Of a stretch of DNA of 43,566 nucleotides, positions 9,384-20,172 are shown piece by piece (positions within the stretch are counted from its first letter, which is position 1; every line of letters starts with the position of its first letter). The stretch covers positions 1 to 43,566 of the forward strand of contig NZ_AULZ01000027.1 of assembly GCF_000422545.1 (NCBI RefSeq), written 5' to 3'. A model generated the notes under the pieces. The model saw only the letters and a program-made list of their open reading frames with translations. It was not told the DNA's origin and searched no databases. Made by a program: the position numbers and the translations under genes. This DNA is from Desulfocurvibacter africanus subsp. africanus DSM 2603 (GTDB lineage Bacteria > Desulfobacterota > Desulfovibrionia > Desulfovibrionales > Desulfovibrionaceae).

Positions 9384-10154
9384 ATGTCCAAAGCTTGGAT
9401 CAGAGCCAAACGCCCGGCCTTCGTACGCGACGTGCTACGCGACTTCTGCCTGGCCAGTCTCAAGCTGGAAGAGCAGTTTCGCCATAACGATCAGCATAAG
9501 CGCCTCAACTTCGACGAAATCCGCGACCTTCTCGGCTTCGAGATGAACAAGGGCCTGCTCTGGCGGCTCAAGGACACGGCGCACCACCTGTTTCGCAACG
9601 AACCCGGCGAAAGATTGGTGGGTCGCTTTCTCGATTGGTCCATGGGCTACATTTTTCACGAAACCATCAAGCTCAAGGAGGACGCCTATCAGCAGGCAAC
9701 TTACGGGCAATGGTTCCGCCAGATGCAGGGTACGGCCATGGCCACCGAGGAATCGGACATAACTCGCGAGCTCTACAAGGTCGTGGAACAGACGCGCGAG
9801 TCCATTGAACGCGAAATTGCACGCATACGCTTCATTCTTGCGCACTGCCGCAGACTGTTTCCCCTTTACCTTTGTGAACATAAAGACAACTTGCTTTTGG
9901 CGCGCCTGATCTTCGAGGAACAGGGGCTGGTCGAGGAAACCTTTGGCAACGATTTTGCACGGTTGCAACGCGCCATCTACGGCAGCGAACCCGAGCTCAT
10001 GTACGTGTATGCCTCGAGAAGCCTGCGGCAAGGCGGCTGGATGGAAGATGCGGCCAGGGCCGTGGAGGAAGCCGCGAGATTGTGCAATTCTAGCCCCTTG
10101 GTGTTGCAGGAAAAAGAAATTGTTGATAGTTGGCAGAAGAAACTCAAAGTCTGA
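9384..10154 (+). CDS. Hypothetical protein, helical, soluble
   Basis: 256 residues; I do not recognise the family. It has no signal peptide or membrane segment. Composition is helix-rich with many charged residues. The C-terminal 80 residues (LLLARLIFEEQGLVEE, then VYASRSLRQGGWMEDAARAVEEAARL) look like two or three alpha-hairpins of tetratricopeptide type. GGAGG lies six bases before ATG. The LysM lipoprotein gene starts 51 bp after its stop, on the same strand with its own strong ribosome site, and both may form one unit ending at the terminator at 10768. The 238-bp gap upstream must hold its promoter, but no convincing -35/-10 pair was found. Confidence 0.7.
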   Translation: MSKAWIRAKRPAFVRDVLRDFCLASLKLEEQFRHNDQHKRLNFDEIRDLLGFEMNKGLLWRLKDTAHHLFRNEPGERLVGRFLDWSMGYIFHETIKLKEDAYQQATYGQWFRQMQGTAMATEESDITRELYKVVEQTRESIEREIARIRFILAHCRRLFPLYLCEHKDNLLLARLIFEEQGLVEETFGNDFARLQRAIYGSEPELMYVYASRSLRQGGWMEDAARAVEEAARLCNSSPLVLQEKEIVDSWQKKLKV

Positions 10155-10709: not shown

Positions 10710-10767
10710 CCGAGCAGAGACCATAGACCAGCTTTTCTGGATTTTCGCCGCAAGGCATGCTACTGAA

Positions 10768-10801
10768 AAGGCGTTCCGGTAAATCACCGGGGCGCCTTTT
10801 T
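10768..10801 (+). terminator. Intrinsic terminator after the LysM lipoprotein gene
   Basis: A 13-bp stem (10768-10780 with 10786-10798, two G-T pairs, five-base loop) runs into TTT, with extra A-T pairs at the base. It separates the lipoprotein gene from the next gene, whose real start is 58 bp further on. Confidence 0.75.
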
Positions 10802-10858: not shown

Positions 10859-12685
10859 ATGAGCCTTCTGCATCTAAACAAAACCGAACGCAAGCTGAGC
10901 CTGAAGAACCCGGCCAATCCCGAACTCTTCCGGCGCATCTATCCCTACACCAATATCAGCCGCATAAGCTTCGACGATCGCTTCATCATGCCCAGGCCGG
11001 CCGACCCCATGTTCATCACGGACACTACGTTTCGTGACGGACAGCAGGCCCGTCCTCCATATTCCGTAGATCAGATCAGTCATATATTCGACCTGTTACA
11101 TAAGCTAGGCGGCAAGTCCGGGCTCATTCGCGCAAGCGAGTTCTTCCTCTATTCGGACAAGGATCGCCGCGCCGTGGAAGCTTGCCTGGCCAAGGGCTAC
11201 AAATATCCGCGCGTCACCGGCTGGATCCGGGCCAACGCCAAAGACCTCAAGCTGGTCAAGGACATGGGCCTGACCGAGACGGGCATGCTCACCTCGGTTT
11301 CGGACTACCATATTTACTTGAAGCTGCAGAAGAATCGTAAGCAGGCCATGGACGATTACCTTGAAGTGGTCAGCAAGGCCCTGGATTGGGGCATCACCCC
11401 CCGCTGCCATTTCGAGGACATCACCCGCGCGGACATCTACGGCTTCTGCATCCCCTTTGCCCAGAAGCTCATGCAATTGTCCAAGGAATACCATCTGCCG
11501 GTGAAGATCCGCCTGTGCGACACCATGGGCTACGGCGTGCCCTACCCCGGCTCGGACCTGCCGCGCTCGGTGGCGCGCATCGTGCGCGCCTTCACCGACG
11601 AGGCCGAGGTGCCCGGCGAGTGGCTCGAATGGCACGGCCACAACGACTTCCACAAGGTGCTCGTCAACGGCGTGGTGGCCTGGCTCTATGGCTGCGGCGG
11701 CATTAACGGCACGCTGCTCGGCTTCGGCGAACGCACGGGCAACTCGCCCATCGAGGCGCTGGTCATCGAGTACATACAGCTCACTGGCGACGACGACGCA
11801 GCCGAGACCCCGGTCATCTCCGAGATCGCCGAATACTTCGAACGCGAGTTGGGCTACCGCGTGCCGGACAATTACCCGTTCGTGGGCAAGGACTTCAACG
11901 CCACCAGCGCGGGCATCCATGTGGACGGGCTGCTCAAGAACGAGGAAATCTACAACATCTTCGACACGACCAAGCTCCTCAACCGCAAGGTGCCCATCAT
12001 CATCACCGACAAGTCCGGCCGCGCGGGCGTGGCCTACTGGATCAACCACCAGCTGGGCCTGTCCAAGGACGCGCAGATCGACAAGCGCCACCCGGCCGTG
12101 GGCAAGATCTACGAGTCCATCGAAAAAGCCTACCAGGCGGGCCGCACCACATCCTTCTCCAACCAGGAGATGAAGTCCCTGGTCAAACGCTACCTGCCCG
12201 AGCTGTTCGCCTCCGAATTCGACCACCTCAAGCAGCTGGCGCACAATCTATCGGCCAGGCTCGTGGTGCGTCTCTCGGAATCCCCCGAGGTGCGCTCCAT
12301 GAATCCCGATGCGGCGGGCAAGGTCATCGGCGACTTCCTGGCCAAATACCCGGTCATCCAGTTCGTCAACCTGGTGGACACCGATGGCAAGGTGGTGGAA
12401 CGCGTGGTGGCCAACGAAGAGGACAAGCCTAAATACGCGCCCCTGACTCGAGGCACCGACCTGTCAAGCCGCGAATGGTTCATCACGCCCATGCAGACCG
12501 GCAAGCTGCACATCACCAATTTCTACCAGTCGCAGTACACGGGCAAGCTCCTGCTGACCGTGGCCGTGCCCGTGGTGGACGAGCAGGACAACCCGCGCGG
12601 CGTGCTCGGCGCGGACATTCGTTTCGAGGAGCTGCTCAAGCGACACGCAGAACTTGATCCGCAAGACCCCACCGAGATGGTGTAG
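10859..12685 (+). CDS. DRE-TIM metallolyase/acyltransferase-like enzyme with C-terminal Cache-like domain
   Basis: 608 residues from the ATG with GGGAGC nine bases upstream; a longer reading from 10757 runs through the preceding terminator. Residues about 45-330 are an HMGL-like TIM barrel of the 2-isopropylmalate/homocitrate/Re-citrate synthase group. They carry the DTTFRDGQQ motif (metal Asp and catalytic Arg), the metal-binding HGHND, and GFGERTGNSPIE. These enzymes condense acetyl-CoA with a 2-oxo acid; Re-citrate synthase of anaerobes is one candidate. Residues about 490-600 (AKYPVIQFVNLVDTDGKVV, RGTDLSSREWF, then GVLGADIRFEELL) resemble a Cache/PDC ligand-binding domain. It is unusual here because the protein has no signal peptide or membrane helix. 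Substrate not determined. Confidence 0.82.
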   Translation: MSLLHLNKTERKLSLKNPANPELFRRIYPYTNISRISFDDRFIMPRPADPMFITDTTFRDGQQARPPYSVDQISHIFDLLHKLGGKSGLIRASEFFLYSDKDRRAVEACLAKGYKYPRVTGWIRANAKDLKLVKDMGLTETGMLTSVSDYHIYLKLQKNRKQAMDDYLEVVSKALDWGITPRCHFEDITRADIYGFCIPFAQKLMQLSKEYHLPVKIRLCDTMGYGVPYPGSDLPRSVARIVRAFTDEAEVPGEWLEWHGHNDFHKVLVNGVVAWLYGCGGINGTLLGFGERTGNSPIEALVIEYIQLTGDDDAAETPVISEIAEYFERELGYRVPDNYPFVGKDFNATSAGIHVDGLLKNEEIYNIFDTTKLLNRKVPIIITDKSGRAGVAYWINHQLGLSKDAQIDKRHPAVGKIYESIEKAYQAGRTTSFSNQEMKSLVKRYLPELFASEFDHLKQLAHNLSARLVVRLSESPEVRSMNPDAAGKVIGDFLAKYPVIQFVNLVDTDGKVVERVVANEEDKPKYAPLTRGTDLSSREWFITPMQTGKLHITNFYQSQYTGKLLLTVAVPVVDEQDNPRGVLGADIRFEELLKRHAELDPQDPTEMV

Positions 12686-14364: not shown

Positions 14365-17300
14365 ATGAATAGCAACGTCTTTCCCATCGTAGCCATCTTT
14401 GTTTCCGCTGGCGGACTGCAAGCCCTGGAGTCGCTCCTGGCTGGCCTGCCACGAAATCCGGGCTTGGCCCTCGTGGTCGTCATGCAGGGCAAATGGAGCT
14501 CGGATGCCTCCCTGCACGGAATCTTGAGCGCGCAGGCTCGCTTTCCAATAATCTGCGCCGGGCACGGCATGGCAGTGCAGGCCGATACGGCCTATGTCAT
14601 ATCGCCAAGCCAAAGCATGAAGATCGAGCACGGTCTCCTGCGCCTGGCGTCATCGGCGGACGAGGTCTTGAAGCCGCACCCGTTCGATCGGTTCTTGCGC
14701 TCGCTAGCCGTGGATCGCGGGCCATGCGCGGCCTGCGTCATGCTTTCCGGCGCGGGCCTGGACGGTATCGCAGGTCTGCGTGCGATACGCGCCGCCGGGG
14801 GGTTGTGCCTGATCCTGGAAGGGGGCGAGATCCAAGACGGCCTGCCGCGCAAGGCTGTCCAGTCCGGTCTGGCAGATTTCGTCCTGCCTGCGGCGAGCAT
14901 GGGCGGAACGCTCCTTGACCTCGTCTCTTGCCGAACTCGCAGCCGGCAAGGCAGCCAAAACGACGGCCCGCGGTTACCAGACGACGCGCAGAGCCTAGCC
15001 GCCATCATATCGGCCGTTCAACAAGCCGCGGGGCAGGATTTCTCCCAGTACAAGCACAGCACGTTGCTCCGGCGCACGCACAAGCGCATGCTGGCGGTCG
15101 GGGCGGCCACGCTGCAGGACTACGCCCGCCTCGTGGCCACGGATGAGGATGAAGCCAGAGCGCTCAAGGACGACCTGCTCATCGGCGTCACGAGGTTCTT
15201 CCGCGACCACGAGGCATTTGATCTTCTCGCCAGACGGGTCTTGCCCGAGGTCCTTGCCCGCAGCCCGCAAGACGATCTGGTCCGCATATGGTGCGTTGGC
15301 TGCTCCACGGGAGAGGAGGCCTATTCAGTGGCCATGCTGTTCCTGGAGCACATGGAGCAGACCGGAGATAAACGCGGGCTACAGGTCTTCGCAACGGATG
15401 CCGACTTCGAAGGCATCGAGGCCGCGCGTGCCGGAATCTACTCCGCTGCCGCGGCGGCGGACATAGGCGAGCGGCGCCGCAGGCGCTTCTTCATGCCAGA
15501 AGGCGAATACTTCCGCGTCCTCCCGAAACTGCGCGACTCGATAGTTTTCGCCGTGCAGGATCTGCTGCGCGATCCGCCCATCATGCGCATCGACCTGATC
15601 GTTTGCCGCAACATGCTCATCTACCTGGACAGCCCGGCCCAGAAGGTCGCGGCGCAGATATTCTTCCAGTCGCTGCATCCGGGCGGCTTCCTTCTGCTTG
15701 GGCCGTCGGAGACACTGGGGGGTTGCGGCGAGCTGTTCCAGGTCGAGGACAAAAAATGGAAACTCTTCAAGCGCCGGCCTTCGGCCACGCTTCCCAAGGG
15801 TGCGCTGCTGACCATGCCGGTCCGGCGCATCGCCTCCATCGGGAGCGAGCAACGCGTTCAGCTTAAGCCGGCCGAGGATCTCGGCCTGACGCTGTTGCGC
15901 ACGCTTGCGCGGCGATACGGCCGTCCGGCGCTGCTGGTCGGCGAACGCAACGAGATCCTGCACTCTTTTGGGGATCTTGGCCCCTATCTGAGCTTTCCGG
16001 AGGGCGAGCCGACAAACTCCCTGTTCCGCACCGCGCGGCCGTTCCTGCGGCCGCACCTCCGCGCTGCGCTGCATAAGTGCCGCAAGGACAGGGTGCCGGT
16101 CGCGCTTGAAGACCTGCATGACGATGGTTCCGCCACTCCGCGATTCCGGCTGACGGTTTCGCCTCTGGAGGCCGACGGTTCGCCAGGGGTGCTGCTGGTG
16201 GTCTTCGAGGCGTCCGAGAGACGCGAGGAGAGCGAAACGCTCGATCAAGTGCGTATCGCTCCCACGGCGCTTGGCAGCAACGAACTCGTGCGCCGCCTGG
16301 AGGATCAACTGCGGGTGACGGGAGAGGAACTCCAGGACATGCTCGCCCGGCATGAGTCCACGCATGAGGAGCTGAGCGCGGCCAACGAGGAGCTCATCTC
16401 CATGAACGAGGAACTGCAGTCCTCCAACGAGGAGTTGGAAAGCTCACAGGAAGAACTGCAGGCCATGAACGAGGAGCTCTATGCGCTAAATACCGAGCTT
16501 CAGGCCAAGGTCGCCGAGTTGGCCGATCTCAATTCAGATATCGAGAATCTCTTCCGCAGCACGGAGATAGCCACGATCTTCCTGGATCAACGCTTATCCA
16601 TCAAACGCTTCACGCCTCGGGCCACGGACATCTTCCACCTGCGGCAGGAAGACCGCGGCCGGCCTTTGTTCCAATTGGCGAGCCTGCTGGAAAGCGGCCA
16701 GGAGGATGCCCTGGCGGAGGATTGCCGCCGCGCCTTAACTGAGCTGGCCAGCATCGAAAAGGAGGTTCGCTCCAAGCCCGGCCGGACCTTCCATGTTCGG
16801 ATATCCCCATATCACTCGCTGGCGAATGTGATCGAGGGCCTGGTCCTGATCTTCGTTGATATTACCGAACGCAAAGCCATGGAGGAGGAACTGCGCCAGC
16901 ACCGTGACGAGCTGGAACGCCTGGTGGCCGAGCGCACTAACGAACTGGCCACGGTCAACGCAGCGCTCACGGCCCTGTTGGCCGACGTCGAAACGGCCAG
17001 GAACGAGGCGCAGCAGCGGGCGCGAGAACTCGATGCGGCCATCTCCTCCATGACTGAAGGCATCATGCTCTTCGACCAGGACAAGCGGCTCGTCAAGATC
17101 AACCAGGTCGCCCAGGACATGTTCGGCTACACGAAAGAGATGCTGGCTCTTTCTCTAAAAGACAGAGCCGGCCCCCTGCTCGCGGAGACACTTGACGGCC
17201 AGCCTGTTGTTTTCGACTCGCTGCCGATCATGCGGGCCTTTGGTGGGGAAACCGTGCGGGACATGGAGATCAAGTACGGCATACCTGGCCGCAGCGAACC

Positions 17301-20172
17301 CCTGTACGCTTCTGTTTCAGCGGCCCCGGTCCAATTGCCCGACGGCAGGCAGATCGGAGCCATAGTCACCTTCGCGGACATCGGCCAGCGCATCAAGGCG
17401 GACAGGCTCCTGCGGGCAAGCGAGGAGCGCTTCCGGGCCACATTCGAGCAGGCCGCGGTCGGTATCGCACACCGCGGCCCCGGCGGCGTATTCATTCAAA
17501 TGAACGACCGGTACTGCGAGATCGTCGGTCGTTCCCGTGAAGAGCTGCTGGGCTTGAAAAGTCAGGACATCACGCATCCCGACGACGTGGACGAGGATCT
17601 TGAACTGACCGGCCGCCTCATGAGCGGGCAAATCGGCACATACTCCAGGGAAAAGCGCTACCTGCGCAAGGACGGTTCCCCGGCCTGGGTCAGTCTCAGC
17701 GTCTCCCTTGTCAAGGGGCCTGACGGCGAGCCGGTCTACGCCATCGCCGTGGTGCAGGATATCTCAGCCCGAAAACAAGCCGAGGAACGTGCCGAAAGCG
17801 TGGCCAAGTTCCCGGAGCAGAATCCCTATCCCGTGCTCCGTTTCGACAGGAGCGGGACGCTGCTATACGCAAACAAGGCCAGCCGGCTGCTTGTGGGCTC
17901 CCCGGAATCCCCACTGGGAAAGACATCAGGCGACCTTCTGGAGACAATCCGGCAAGCGGTCAGAATGGGCCAACGGCGGGATATGGAGGTTTTCCTGGAC
18001 GGCAGCGCCTATCTTCTGGCGATAGCGCCCATACCGGACCAGGATTACGTGAATGTATACGGCATGGACGTGACCGCGCTCACCAGGGTTCAGAACGCCC
18101 TGCGGGAGAGCCAGGCGGACTTGGATCGCGCCCAGACCGTGGCACAGACCGGAAGCTGGCGGCTCGATATCCGGCGAAACGAGCTGATCTGGTCCGACGA
18201 GACCTACCGCTTGTTCGGAATTCCCCATGGGACGCCGCTGACATATGAGCTGTTTCTGTCCCGAGTGCACCCCGACGACCGGGAGCAAGTGGCCACGAAG
18301 TGGACGGCCGCCATTCAGGGCGAGGCTTACGATATCGAGCACAGGATCGTCGTGGCCGGCGCAGTGAAGTGGGTCCGCGAGGTCGCGGAACTGGAGTTCG
18401 ACGGGAAAGGCGAGCTGCTCGGCGGATTCGGGACAGTCCAGGACATTACCGACCGCAAGCGGATGGAGCAGGAACTCATCCTGGCCAAGGAAAAAGCCGA
18501 ACAGCGGGCCAGGATCGAGGAAAGACTCGCTCAGGCCGCTCAGGACCTGTCCACGGCGCGCGACTTGGAGTCGATCATGACCGTCGTGCGCACGTCGACC
18601 AGGGAGTTGACCGGCGCGGACGGTGTTTCGTTCGTCCTGCGCGATGGAGACAAATGCTTTTACGCCGACGAGGACGCCATCGAGCCCCTGTGGAAGGGCC
18701 AGCGCTTTCCCATGGAAATGTGCATTAGCGGCTGGGTCATGCTCAACCGGCAGACCGCTGTGATCAAGGACATCTACGCCGACCCGCGCATCCCCATGGA
18801 CACCTACCGGCCGACCTTCGTCAAGAGCCTGGCCATGGTGCCCGTGCGCAGCGCGAATCCCGTGGCCGCCATCGGCGCTTACTGGGCCGCCGAGCACAAC
18901 CCCGAACCAGACGCGGTAAGATTCCTGCAATCCCTGGCGGACCTGACTTCCGTGGCCATGGACAACGTGCGGCTCTACGACGAGTTGCGGCAGTGGGCGG
19001 ATGCGCTGGAGGCGCAGAAGGAGGTCGCCGAGCAGGCCACCAGGGCCAAGAGCGAATTCCTGGCCAACATGAGCCATGAAATCCGCACGCCCATGAACGG
19101 CATCCTCGGCATGAACGAACTCGCGCTGATGCGCGTAAACGATGCGCAGGCCAGGGAGTACCTGCTGCTGGCCAAGAAGTCCGGCCTGGCCCTCCTGGAC
19201 ATCATCAACGACATCCTGGACCTCTCCAAGATCGAAGCCGGCAAGATCGCTTTGGACCAGGAGCCCTTCGACCTGCGCGACGTTCTCGACTCCACGCTCA
19301 AGCCCCTGTCGCTGGGCGCGGACGAAAAAGGGCTGCACATCCATCATACCCTTGAGGACTGCGCGCCGGAGCGCCTGATCGGCGACAAGGGCCGTCTGCG
19401 GCAGGTGCTCACCAATCTCGTGAGCAATGCGGTCAAATTCTCCGAGCAGGGCGTGGTGCGGGTAACCGTAAGCAGCAACGGCGAAGCCTCGTCCCCGGAC
19501 CGCACGCAACTGCTGTTCACGGTCGCGGACCAGGGCATCGGCATCCCTCCGGACAAGCTTGCCTCCATCTTCGAGAGCTTCGCCCAGCTCAAATCCTCGG
19601 CGCACATCAAGTACGGAGGCACGGGTTTGGGCCTGACCATCTGCAGGCAGCTCGTGGAGCTCATGGGCGGCAGCATCTGGGCCGAGAGCGAAGTCGGCAA
19701 GGGTTCGACCTTCTTCTTCACCATCGAATGCGACGTGGCGCAAGAAGAGGAGCCCAAGGCTGAAACAGGCCGTCCGCAAAAAGCGCTTCAGAAGCGCAGG
19801 CTAAAGGTGCTGCTGGCCGAGGACAACAAGGTGAACCAGCTTCTGGCCATGGAGCTGCTCCGGCGCAAGGGCCACACGGTCAGCCTGGCGGAAAACGGAC
19901 GCGAAGCCCTCGACAAGCTTTCCGCGGATTCCTTCGACCTCGTGCTCATGGACGTGCTCATGCCGGAGATGGACGGCGACGAGGCCGCCAAGCGCATACG
20001 CGCGGGCGAGGCGGGCGATCCCAAAATTCCCATCGTGGCCCTGACCGCTTACGCCCTCAAGGGCGATCGCGAAAAACTATTGGACGCCGGCATGGACGAT
20101 TATCTCTCCAAGCCCATCGACCTGGAGGAGTTTGACCAAGTACTGGAACGCCTGTTCACGACGAACGACTGA
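14365..20172 (+). CDS. Giant CheB-CheR-PAS-GAF hybrid histidine kinase with receiver domain
   Basis: 1935 residues, no membrane segment; AGGA lies upstream of ATG at fair spacing. Domains in order: CheB-like methylesterase (1-190; nucleophile Ser14 and LSGAGLDG present, but no His at the expected QH position, which reads MQGK); CheR methyltransferase (about 210-475; SAM motif GCSTGEE at 312-318, CRNMLIYL); a Glu/Asn-rich coiled coil with NEEL repeats (about 655-725); PAS domains near 726-845, 891-1005, 1021-1140, 1151-1240 and 1250-1370; GAF (about 1393-1540); HisKA with phospho-acceptor His1571 (MSHEIRTP); HATPase_c (N-box about 1682, DQGIGIP at 1722, GGTGLGL); receiver with Asp1863 and YLSKP. 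Such CheB/CheR-PAS proteins sense cytosolic cues. Output is probably through its own receiver and perhaps the two regulators downstream. Confidence 0.92.
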   Translation: MNSNVFPIVAIFVSAGGLQALESLLAGLPRNPGLALVVVMQGKWSSDASLHGILSAQARFPIICAGHGMAVQADTAYVISPSQSMKIEHGLLRLASSADEVLKPHPFDRFLRSLAVDRGPCAACVMLSGAGLDGIAGLRAIRAAGGLCLILEGGEIQDGLPRKAVQSGLADFVLPAASMGGTLLDLVSCRTRSRQGSQNDGPRLPDDAQSLAAIISAVQQAAGQDFSQYKHSTLLRRTHKRMLAVGAATLQDYARLVATDEDEARALKDDLLIGVTRFFRDHEAFDLLARRVLPEVLARSPQDDLVRIWCVGCSTGEEAYSVAMLFLEHMEQTGDKRGLQVFATDADFEGIEAARAGIYSAAAAADIGERRRRRFFMPEGEYFRVLPKLRDSIVFAVQDLLRDPPIMRIDLIVCRNMLIYLDSPAQKVAAQIFFQSLHPGGFLLLGPSETLGGCGELFQVEDKKWKLFKRRPSATLPKGALLTMPVRRIASIGSEQRVQLKPAEDLGLTLLRTLARRYGRPALLVGERNEILHSFGDLGPYLSFPEGEPTNSLFRTARPFLRPHLRAALHKCRKDRVPVALEDLHDDGSATPRFRLTVSPLEADGSPGVLLVVFEASERREESETLDQVRIAPTALGSNELVRRLEDQLRVTGEELQDMLARHESTHEELSAANEELISMNEELQSSNEELESSQEELQAMNEELYALNTELQAKVAELADLNSDIENLFRSTEIATIFLDQRLSIKRFTPRATDIFHLRQEDRGRPLFQLASLLESGQEDALAEDCRRALTELASIEKEVRSKPGRTFHVRISPYHSLANVIEGLVLIFVDITERKAMEEELRQHRDELERLVAERTNELATVNAALTALLADVETARNEAQQRARELDAAISSMTEGIMLFDQDKRLVKINQVAQDMFGYTKEMLALSLKDRAGPLLAETLDGQPVVFDSLPIMRAFGGETVRDMEIKYGIPGRSEPLYASVSAAPVQLPDGRQIGAIVTFADIGQRIKADRLLRASEERFRATFEQAAVGIAHRGPGGVFIQMNDRYCEIVGRSREELLGLKSQDITHPDDVDEDLELTGRLMSGQIGTYSREKRYLRKDGSPAWVSLSVSLVKGPDGEPVYAIAVVQDISARKQAEERAESVAKFPEQNPYPVLRFDRSGTLLYANKASRLLVGSPESPLGKTSGDLLETIRQAVRMGQRRDMEVFLDGSAYLLAIAPIPDQDYVNVYGMDVTALTRVQNALRESQADLDRAQTVAQTGSWRLDIRRNELIWSDETYRLFGIPHGTPLTYELFLSRVHPDDREQVATKWTAAIQGEAYDIEHRIVVAGAVKWVREVAELEFDGKGELLGGFGTVQDITDRKRMEQELILAKEKAEQRARIEERLAQAAQDLSTARDLESIMTVVRTSTRELTGADGVSFVLRDGDKCFYADEDAIEPLWKGQRFPMEMCISGWVMLNRQTAVIKDIYADPRIPMDTYRPTFVKSLAMVPVRSANPVAAIGAYWAAEHNPEPDAVRFLQSLADLTSVAMDNVRLYDELRQWADALEAQKEVAEQATRAKSEFLANMSHEIRTPMNGILGMNELALMRVNDAQAREYLLLAKKSGLALLDIINDILDLSKIEAGKIALDQEPFDLRDVLDSTLKPLSLGADEKGLHIHHTLEDCAPERLIGDKGRLRQVLTNLVSNAVKFSEQGVVRVTVSSNGEASSPDRTQLLFTVADQGIGIPPDKLASIFESFAQLKSSAHIKYGGTGLGLTICRQLVELMGGSIWAESEVGKGSTFFFTIECDVAQEEEPKAETGRPQKALQKRRLKVLLAEDNKVNQLLAMELLRRKGHTVSLAENGREALDKLSADSFDLVLMDVLMPEMDGDEAAKRIRAGEAGDPKIPIVALTAYALKGDREKLLDAGMDDYLSKPIDLEEFDQVLERLFTTND

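Follow-up and report, generated by a model that had tools for sequence, protein, structure and literature searches.

Which acetyl-CoA-condensing enzyme carries a Cache domain behind its catalytic part, and what might such a domain do there in the cytosol? This question is raised by an open reading frame in a 43,566-nucleotide stretch of DNA from Desulfocurvibacter africanus subsp. africanus DSM 2603 (contig NZ_AULZ01000027.1), which is referred to here as the window. The frame runs on the + strand from an ATG at 10859 to a stop at 12685 and encodes a protein of 608 aa, in which the following features were assigned.

10859..12685, + strand: putative Re-citrate synthase with C-terminal Cache, 608 aa, P0001 (ORF, Pfam, collinearity with the L186 protein described below)
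11015..11770, + strand: HMGL-like DRE-TIM barrel, residues 53-304 (PF00682, E 1.5e-27; Foldseek match 6ktq, E 3.6e-24)
11033..11047, + strand: presumed catalytic/metal motif R59-D60-G61-Q62-Q63 (identical in 58 of 58 rows)
11633..11647, + strand: HGHND motif, residues 259-263 (all five columns invariant in the 58-row alignment)
11900..12064, + strand: weak HCS_D2-like post-barrel part, residues 348-402 (PF22617, E 0.0018, below the curated cut-off)
12215..12640, + strand: single Cache domain, residues 453-594, with a long N-terminal helix, 453-473 (Pfam, AlphaFold2, Foldseek and VIA)
12470..12481, + strand: R538-E-W540-F541, equivalents of PctA R126, W128 and Y129 (profile alignment to PctA)
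12524..12526, + strand: Y556, equivalent of PctA Y144 (Y 47, F 7, K 1 of 55)
12614..12616, + strand: D586, equivalent of PctA D173, the key Asp of the amino-acid motif (D in 55 of 55)

An alternative in-frame ATG at 10757 would yield 642 aa; it was rejected as the start, as relatives align from 10859 and a hairpin with a T-run (10770-10801, read by eye) separates the two ATGs. For comparison the best 80 of 586 relatives were retained, and 57 of these, picked by eye, were aligned with the window protein (alignment A1, 58 members). The 23 omitted relatives were in some cases near kin of retained rows and in others cut or frameshifted (L003, L005, L007, L008, L010, L011, L016, L019, L024, L028, L032, L039, L046, L049, L053, L054, L060, L061, L062, L066, L071, L079, L080). 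Three of the 58 aligned members are short Bacillota rows without the Cache region, and Cache counts refer to the other 55. The first-pass annotation had described a DRE-TIM enzyme of the acetyl-CoA-condensing kind, which is confirmed by the PF00682 match and by intact catalytic residues: R59, D60, H259, H261 and N295 show no variation in 58 of 58 rows, whereas a loss of catalytic residues in orthologues had been named as part of a refuting outcome. As in the DRE-TIM family, the R59-Q63 motif would have a catalytic/metal role and HGHND would bind metal. The HCS_D2 model matched 11 of the 58 aligned members at E 0.001. The cytosolic placement proposed earlier also holds, since hydropathy averaged over 19 residues peaks at 1.19 in the whole protein and at 0.09 in the first 60 residues, so that no signal peptide or transmembrane helix is apparent; in the family 4 of 58 rows reach 1.6-1.64, all within the Cache. 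A membrane or exported protein was considered and finds no support in hydropathy. The neighbours in the window (LysM and RlpA by Pfam) gave no hint at function.

Our preferred reading, to which we assign a probability of about 0.6, is a Re-citrate synthase whose cytosolic Cache responds to a small amino (or oxo) acid and adjusts citrate formation accordingly. In the proposed mechanism, a divalent-metal-dependent DRE-TIM enzyme would make citrate from acetyl-CoA and oxaloacetate, as the initial reaction on the way to 2-oxoglutarate and glutamate in an anaerobe that lacks Si-citrate synthase. R538 would hold the carboxylate of the ligand and D586 its amino group, binding would be relayed via helix 453-473 to the catalytic part, and the ligand would tune citrate synthesis towards glutamate, as LeuA does for isopropylmalate synthase. 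The enzyme superfamily, the Cache fold and the conservation of the pocket are supported here, and the Re-citrate synthase assignment is supported indirectly; the ligand class and the control of the enzyme we infer. Glutamate or a related amino acid is a guess at the ligand, and it is only a tentative suggestion that the cytosolic Cache responds to such an end product and thereby regulates how much carbon enters the oxidative arm of the TCA cycle. Citrate synthase is a metabolic control point, and if the Cache controls this enzyme, a class of domains familiar chiefly from receptors at the cell surface acts as a metabolic feedback sensor. In that case, anaerobes of several phyla would have, on an enzyme of this superfamily, an allosteric tail of another kind than LeuA and RAM.

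The reality of the Cache was indicated by several lines of evidence. Pfam dCache_1 matched residues 471-592 (E 7.4e-12; 45.8 bits, barely above the cut-off of 45) and MCP-like_PDC_1 residues 520-592 (E 6.3e-9; 36.7 bits against a cut-off of 27). Across the family at E 0.001, MCP-like_PDC_1 was found in 55 and dCache_1 in 54 of the 58 aligned members. AlphaFold2 predicted the whole protein with pLDDT 89.2 and pTM 0.75, and the Cache alone with pLDDT 92.5 and pTM 0.87, as the long helix followed by a PAS-like sheet. With this model, Foldseek placed KinD chains at the top (E 1.6e-8) and WalK/YycG, Tlp3, Mlp37 and PctB further down, while VIA gave Z scores of 16.3 for WalK/YycG and 16.1 for KinD, with 129-133 residues aligned at 2.8-3.5 Å. 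A chance Cache match is ruled out by the family-wide scan together with the predicted fold and the structure matches. The structure prediction suggested earlier as a check thus returned a Cache-like fold and not one unlike Cache/PAS, and for the architecture of a catalytic DRE-TIM part with a C-terminal Cache, family models, AlphaFold2 and structure searches are concordant. One Cache module is present, and a double Cache is absent.

After the catalytic part, isopropylmalate synthase (IPMS) carries a LeuA domain and SaHCS a RAM domain. LeuA (2-isopropylmalate synthase) shares with the 608-aa protein a DRE-TIM barrel followed by a C-terminal regulatory domain, but there this is the LeuA dimer domain, with leucine feedback, in place of a Cache. 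The Cache had been said to occupy the position of the LeuA domain of IPMS, and it does follow the catalytic and post-barrel parts. In the Sulfolobus homocitrate synthase 6ktq, the top structural match of the whole protein, the enzyme's own RAM domain, which is ACT-like, was deleted in the crystal (dRAM). Re-citrate synthase is already known, as an uncommon type of citrate-forming enzyme that occurs in many anaerobic bacteria, and what is unusual here is that a central-metabolic enzyme carries a Cache in the cytosol. That Cache domains are normally extracytoplasmic, as the first-pass annotation stated, is mostly true, with the exceptions Diacid_rec and YkuI_C, families that are principally intracellular (PMC4822843). 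Both resemble the present case in being cytosolic, and YkuI is matched by the Cache profile of the 608-aa family (E 6.4e-4). They differ in that YkuI_C, found with EAL (PMC4822843), and Diacid_rec occur in signalling/regulatory proteins, whereas the protein here is a metabolic synthase. Since Pfam models find the Cache, databases probably show the architecture. Among the papers searched and listed, none was found to describe a Cache in synthases of citrate, homocitrate or isopropylmalate, a remark in the original biochemical papers being possible; the words 'cache' and 'domain' do not occur in the main text of PMC12016533, nor 'citrate' in the main texts of two papers, on Desulfovibrio fitness and on amino acid pathway gaps. 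Likewise, the literature consulted yielded no account of the control of Re-type citrate synthases.

The ligand class was approached through the amino-acid receptor PctA, whose numbering was fitted onto the profile alignment from PMC10104139. In that paper, the carboxyl group of the ligand is bound by R126 of PctA, W128 and Y144 are favourably placed towards the ligand, and D173 is described as key and Y129 as structural. Five of the six PctA amino-acid pocket positions are kept by the Cache: R538 (R126), W540 (W128), F541 (Y129), Y556 (Y144) and D586 (D173). The sixth, Y121 in PctA, is T533 here and variable, being Y or F in just 6 of 55 rows. W540, F541 and D586 are invariant in the 55 Cache-bearing rows, position 538 is R in 50 of them and position 556 is Y or F in 54. 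The exact pattern R-W-F-Y-D is found in 45 of 55, and R/K, aromatics and D in 51 of 55. Conservation reaches at least 90% in 14 of the 140 Cache columns, which include four of the five kept positions (hypergeometric 3e-4); S558, L564 and T567 are equally conserved, and some of these columns may be structural. The missing equivalent of Y121 and the single Cache mean that the domain is not a dCache_1AA member. The pocket pattern R-x-W-F/Y...Y...D and the fold are common to PctA, Tlp3 and KinD, except that Tlp3 has Lys for Arg and KinD lacks W and D; these are, however, sensor domains of receptors with a double Cache, whereas a single Cache sits on a cytosolic enzyme here. From the conserved residues we infer a small ligand for the Cache, an amino acid being the most likely kind.

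If the Cache of a Re-citrate synthase instead sensed a carboxylate (pyruvate, citrate or 2-oxoglutarate), it would provide feedback on the state of product or substrate. KinD, which was solved with pyruvate, is the top Foldseek match and among the best VIA Z scores, VIA further gave Z 15.1 for CitA, 14.9 for citrate-bound CitA and 14.8 for succinate-bound DctB, and R538 aligns with the KinD Arg replaced by Ala in the R131A structure. We nevertheless regard carboxylate sensing as unlikely, as KinD has Phe in place of W540 and Ala in place of D586, both invariant in 55 of 55 rows, while W and D are both retained by Tlp3, solved with isoleucine, and by PctA, solved with amino acids. This would favour an amino acid over a plain carboxylate.

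A Re-citrate synthase with a ligand-free Cache, serving purely as a structural or oligomerisation part, was weighed against the distribution and conservation of the domain. Cache-bearing proteins among the best 80 of 586 relatives come, going by their record titles, besides Thermodesulfobacteriota, from Nitrospirae, Spirochaetes, Omnitrophota, Elusimicrobia, Lentisphaerae and others. The 143 strong matches in the phylum (E ≤1e-100) comprise 138 with Cache (one split over two contigs), 4 short and 1 cut; the Cache-less forms, in G016, G034, G212 and G294, are closed frames of 455-489 aa. In the phylum of the Bacillota MAG G298, 32 of 299 genomes have a match at E 1e-40, and none of the matches listed for these 32 extends past residue 465, which indicates that the enzyme can do without the Cache. 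Both the lack of the domain in Bacillota and four Thermodesulfobacteriota relatives and the lower mean column identity (0.57 in the Cache against 0.73 in the catalytic part) would suit a ligand-free part. Conservation is, however, concentrated on the sensor-pocket positions, even though the three further columns named above are equally conserved, and we consider a ligand-free Cache quite unlikely. The Bacillota relatives without it form a natural control for the role of the Cache in the sensing enzyme that we favour.

The first catalytic-region tree was built from 68 rows plus the window protein, and the second without the long or outgroup rows L081, L082, L083, L154, L155 and L156 and without L080, whose match breaks off within the Cache and which was labelled as Cache-less in the first tree. 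Changes between long and short labels numbered 6 in the first tree, 5 without L080-L083 and 4 in the second tree. With four to six changes and an unsure root, we make no call between loss of the Cache by the short forms and its original absence from them. L151, L152, L153 and L154 are Cache-less relatives from four Thermodesulfobacteriota genomes, and the grouping of L152 and L153 with sequences from the Bacillota search suggests gene transfer. Among plasmids, the search returned 162 records, none covering 80% of the query, and the 30 matches listed were mainly leuA genes. Homologues of 37-40% identity, annotated as pyruvate carboxyltransferase, are carried by the Deinococcus plasmids NZ_CP097152.1 and NZ_CP031163.1, where the match stops at query residue 446, ahead of the Cache.

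The 608-aa enzyme is very probably a Re-citrate synthase. No NCBIfam equivalog for an isopropylmalate, homocitrate or citramalate synthase was passed: none of the 19 models listed reached its cut-off, the top one being nifV with 136.1 against 462.9 bits. The own genome encodes LeuA and CimA proteins that exceed their cut-offs, and its NifV-like protein falls short of the one set for it; aconitate hydratase (923 bits, cut-off 612) and NADP isocitrate dehydrogenase (530 bits, cut-off 490) were detected as well, and no match to Si-citrate synthase (PF00285, Citrate_synt) was found in this genome.

This complementarity extends to the phylum. In 297 phylum genomes, with thresholds of E ≤1e-100 for the 608-aa protein and ≤1e-50 for Citrate_synt, 118 had the Re gene only, 120 the Si gene only, 25 both and 34 neither (Fisher 1e-26, a value that overstates independence because of the kinship among genomes and of genes that may be absent from drafts). 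When Citrate_synt matches were counted from 1e-10 on, the numbers were 116, 131, 27 and 23; restriction to genomes of 95% completeness or more, with the first threshold, gave 84, 94, 20 and 13. The switch also occurs inside families, as in the own family, where 8 of 11 genomes have Re only and 3 of 11 Si only. Within the phylum the two genes thus tend towards mutual exclusion. Outside it the exclusion is weaker in a small, hand-picked set, the 18 genomes of several phyla behind the relatives' loci, of which 7 have a Citrate_synt match, one just partial. Both synthases occur in genomes such as G162, G187 and G211 (family f71), and for the 25 genomes with both, pure replacement is no explanation.

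A possible link to a characterised enzyme is provided by L186. This genome has exactly one match, a protein of 629 aa and 71,766 Da from its ATG, which is 54% identical to the 608-aa protein over 583 residues without gaps, Cache included. We take it to be the Re-citrate synthase of Syntrophus aciditrophicus SB. Kim et al. (2013) reportedly dealt with the Re-citrate synthase of S. aciditrophicus, which is said to have been produced in E. coli and purified with a Strep-tagged subunit of 72,892 Da. The difference between this mass of the tagged subunit and that of the L186 protein is about one tag. On this assumption, the S. aciditrophicus enzyme would resemble the 608-aa protein in its Cache and in being collinear, and the L186 sequence would be tied to the tested enzyme solely by the presumed identity of the genome and by the mass. 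In the order of G250, 60 genomes at least 97% complete were surveyed (G250 itself 95), and 42 of the 60, the L186 genome among them, have a match at E 1e-40.

According to PMC12016533, the Re-citrate synthases of S. aciditrophicus and C. kluyveri are known and have been isolated, and the Heliomicrobium HM1_2993 type, which catalyses the same reaction and is kin to homocitrate synthase, is about 28% identical to both. The clostridial enzyme is represented in our comparison by 33 Bacillota rows (one a duplicate), presumably of C. kluyveri type. They are 50-62% identical over the catalytic part and, unlike the 608-aa protein, are Cache-less, their matches stopping near residue 450. Putative Re-type citrate synthases are described in PMC11257099 for Endomicrobiaceae without a canonical citrate synthase. 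One result speaks against a simple reading of Re-citrate synthase homologues: acetate gave Si-type labelling in an anammox culture although a Re-citrate synthase candidate is present there, which the authors ascribe to a side population (PMC8027424).

Gene order was compared in 85 sources (80 loci, L151-L153, L186 and the window), many of which end at contig ends. An aconitase-family gene lies near the synthase in 11 of 85, an isocitrate-dehydrogenase-like gene in 10 of 85 and both in 7 of 85 (L006, L010, L036, L041, L042, L045 and L070). Six of the ten dehydrogenase neighbours pass the NCBIfam cut-off for NADP isocitrate dehydrogenase (L003, L006, L036, L041, L042 and L045); for the other four (L010, L056, L058 and L070) isocitrate dehydrogenase models are on top, below all cut-offs. 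The aconitase-family neighbours of L070 and L073 pass the NCBIfam aconitate hydratase cut-off and those of L006, L008, L010 and L014 the 'hydratase' model PRK11413, while those of L036, L041, L042, L045 and L033 (a fragment) match general large-subunit subfamilies of aconitase/isopropylmalate/homoaconitase and, taken alone, would also suit a homocitrate pathway. In an Elusimicrobia MAG (L070:5986-11703), the genes for Re-citrate synthase, malate dehydrogenase, aconitate hydratase and an isocitrate-dehydrogenase-like protein stand in one row, with malate dehydrogenase between the synthase and aconitase.

Of IPMS, homocitrate synthase and Re-citrate synthase, the candidates named in the first-pass annotation, the last fits best, in view of the complementarity among genomes, the order of neighbouring genes and the collinearity to the enzyme presumed to be that of S. 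aciditrophicus. In the catalytic-region tree, 64 rows of long and short forms are separate from LeuA, CimA and the NifV-like protein, as one deep clade (support 100, very long branch). A second homocitrate, isopropylmalate or citramalate synthase, to which the nifV top match, the sub-threshold NifV-like paralogue and the five neighbouring dehydratases with homoaconitase-type subfamily matches might point, is highly improbable in view of the low nifV score, the LeuA and CimA already present, the complementarity with Si-citrate synthase, the six NADP isocitrate dehydrogenase neighbours and the deep clade apart from the paralogues.

Further genes recur around the Re-citrate synthase. An aspartyl-tRNA synthetase cluster (members scanned: L015 and L186) is located upstream in 36 of 85 sources and is preceded in 23 of 85 by a histidyl-tRNA synthetase cluster (member scanned: L015); examples are L015:2562-5728 and L186:6575-9636. 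A protein of 252-267 aa is encoded upstream in 4 of 85 sources (window 9384-10154, L004:4398-5201, L012:5215-5973 and L050:4927-5694), and its copy in the window had no Pfam or NCBIfam match at E 1. At 14365-20172 the window also encodes a 1935-aa protein with CheB, CheR, PAS, GAF, HisKA, HATPase and receiver domains.
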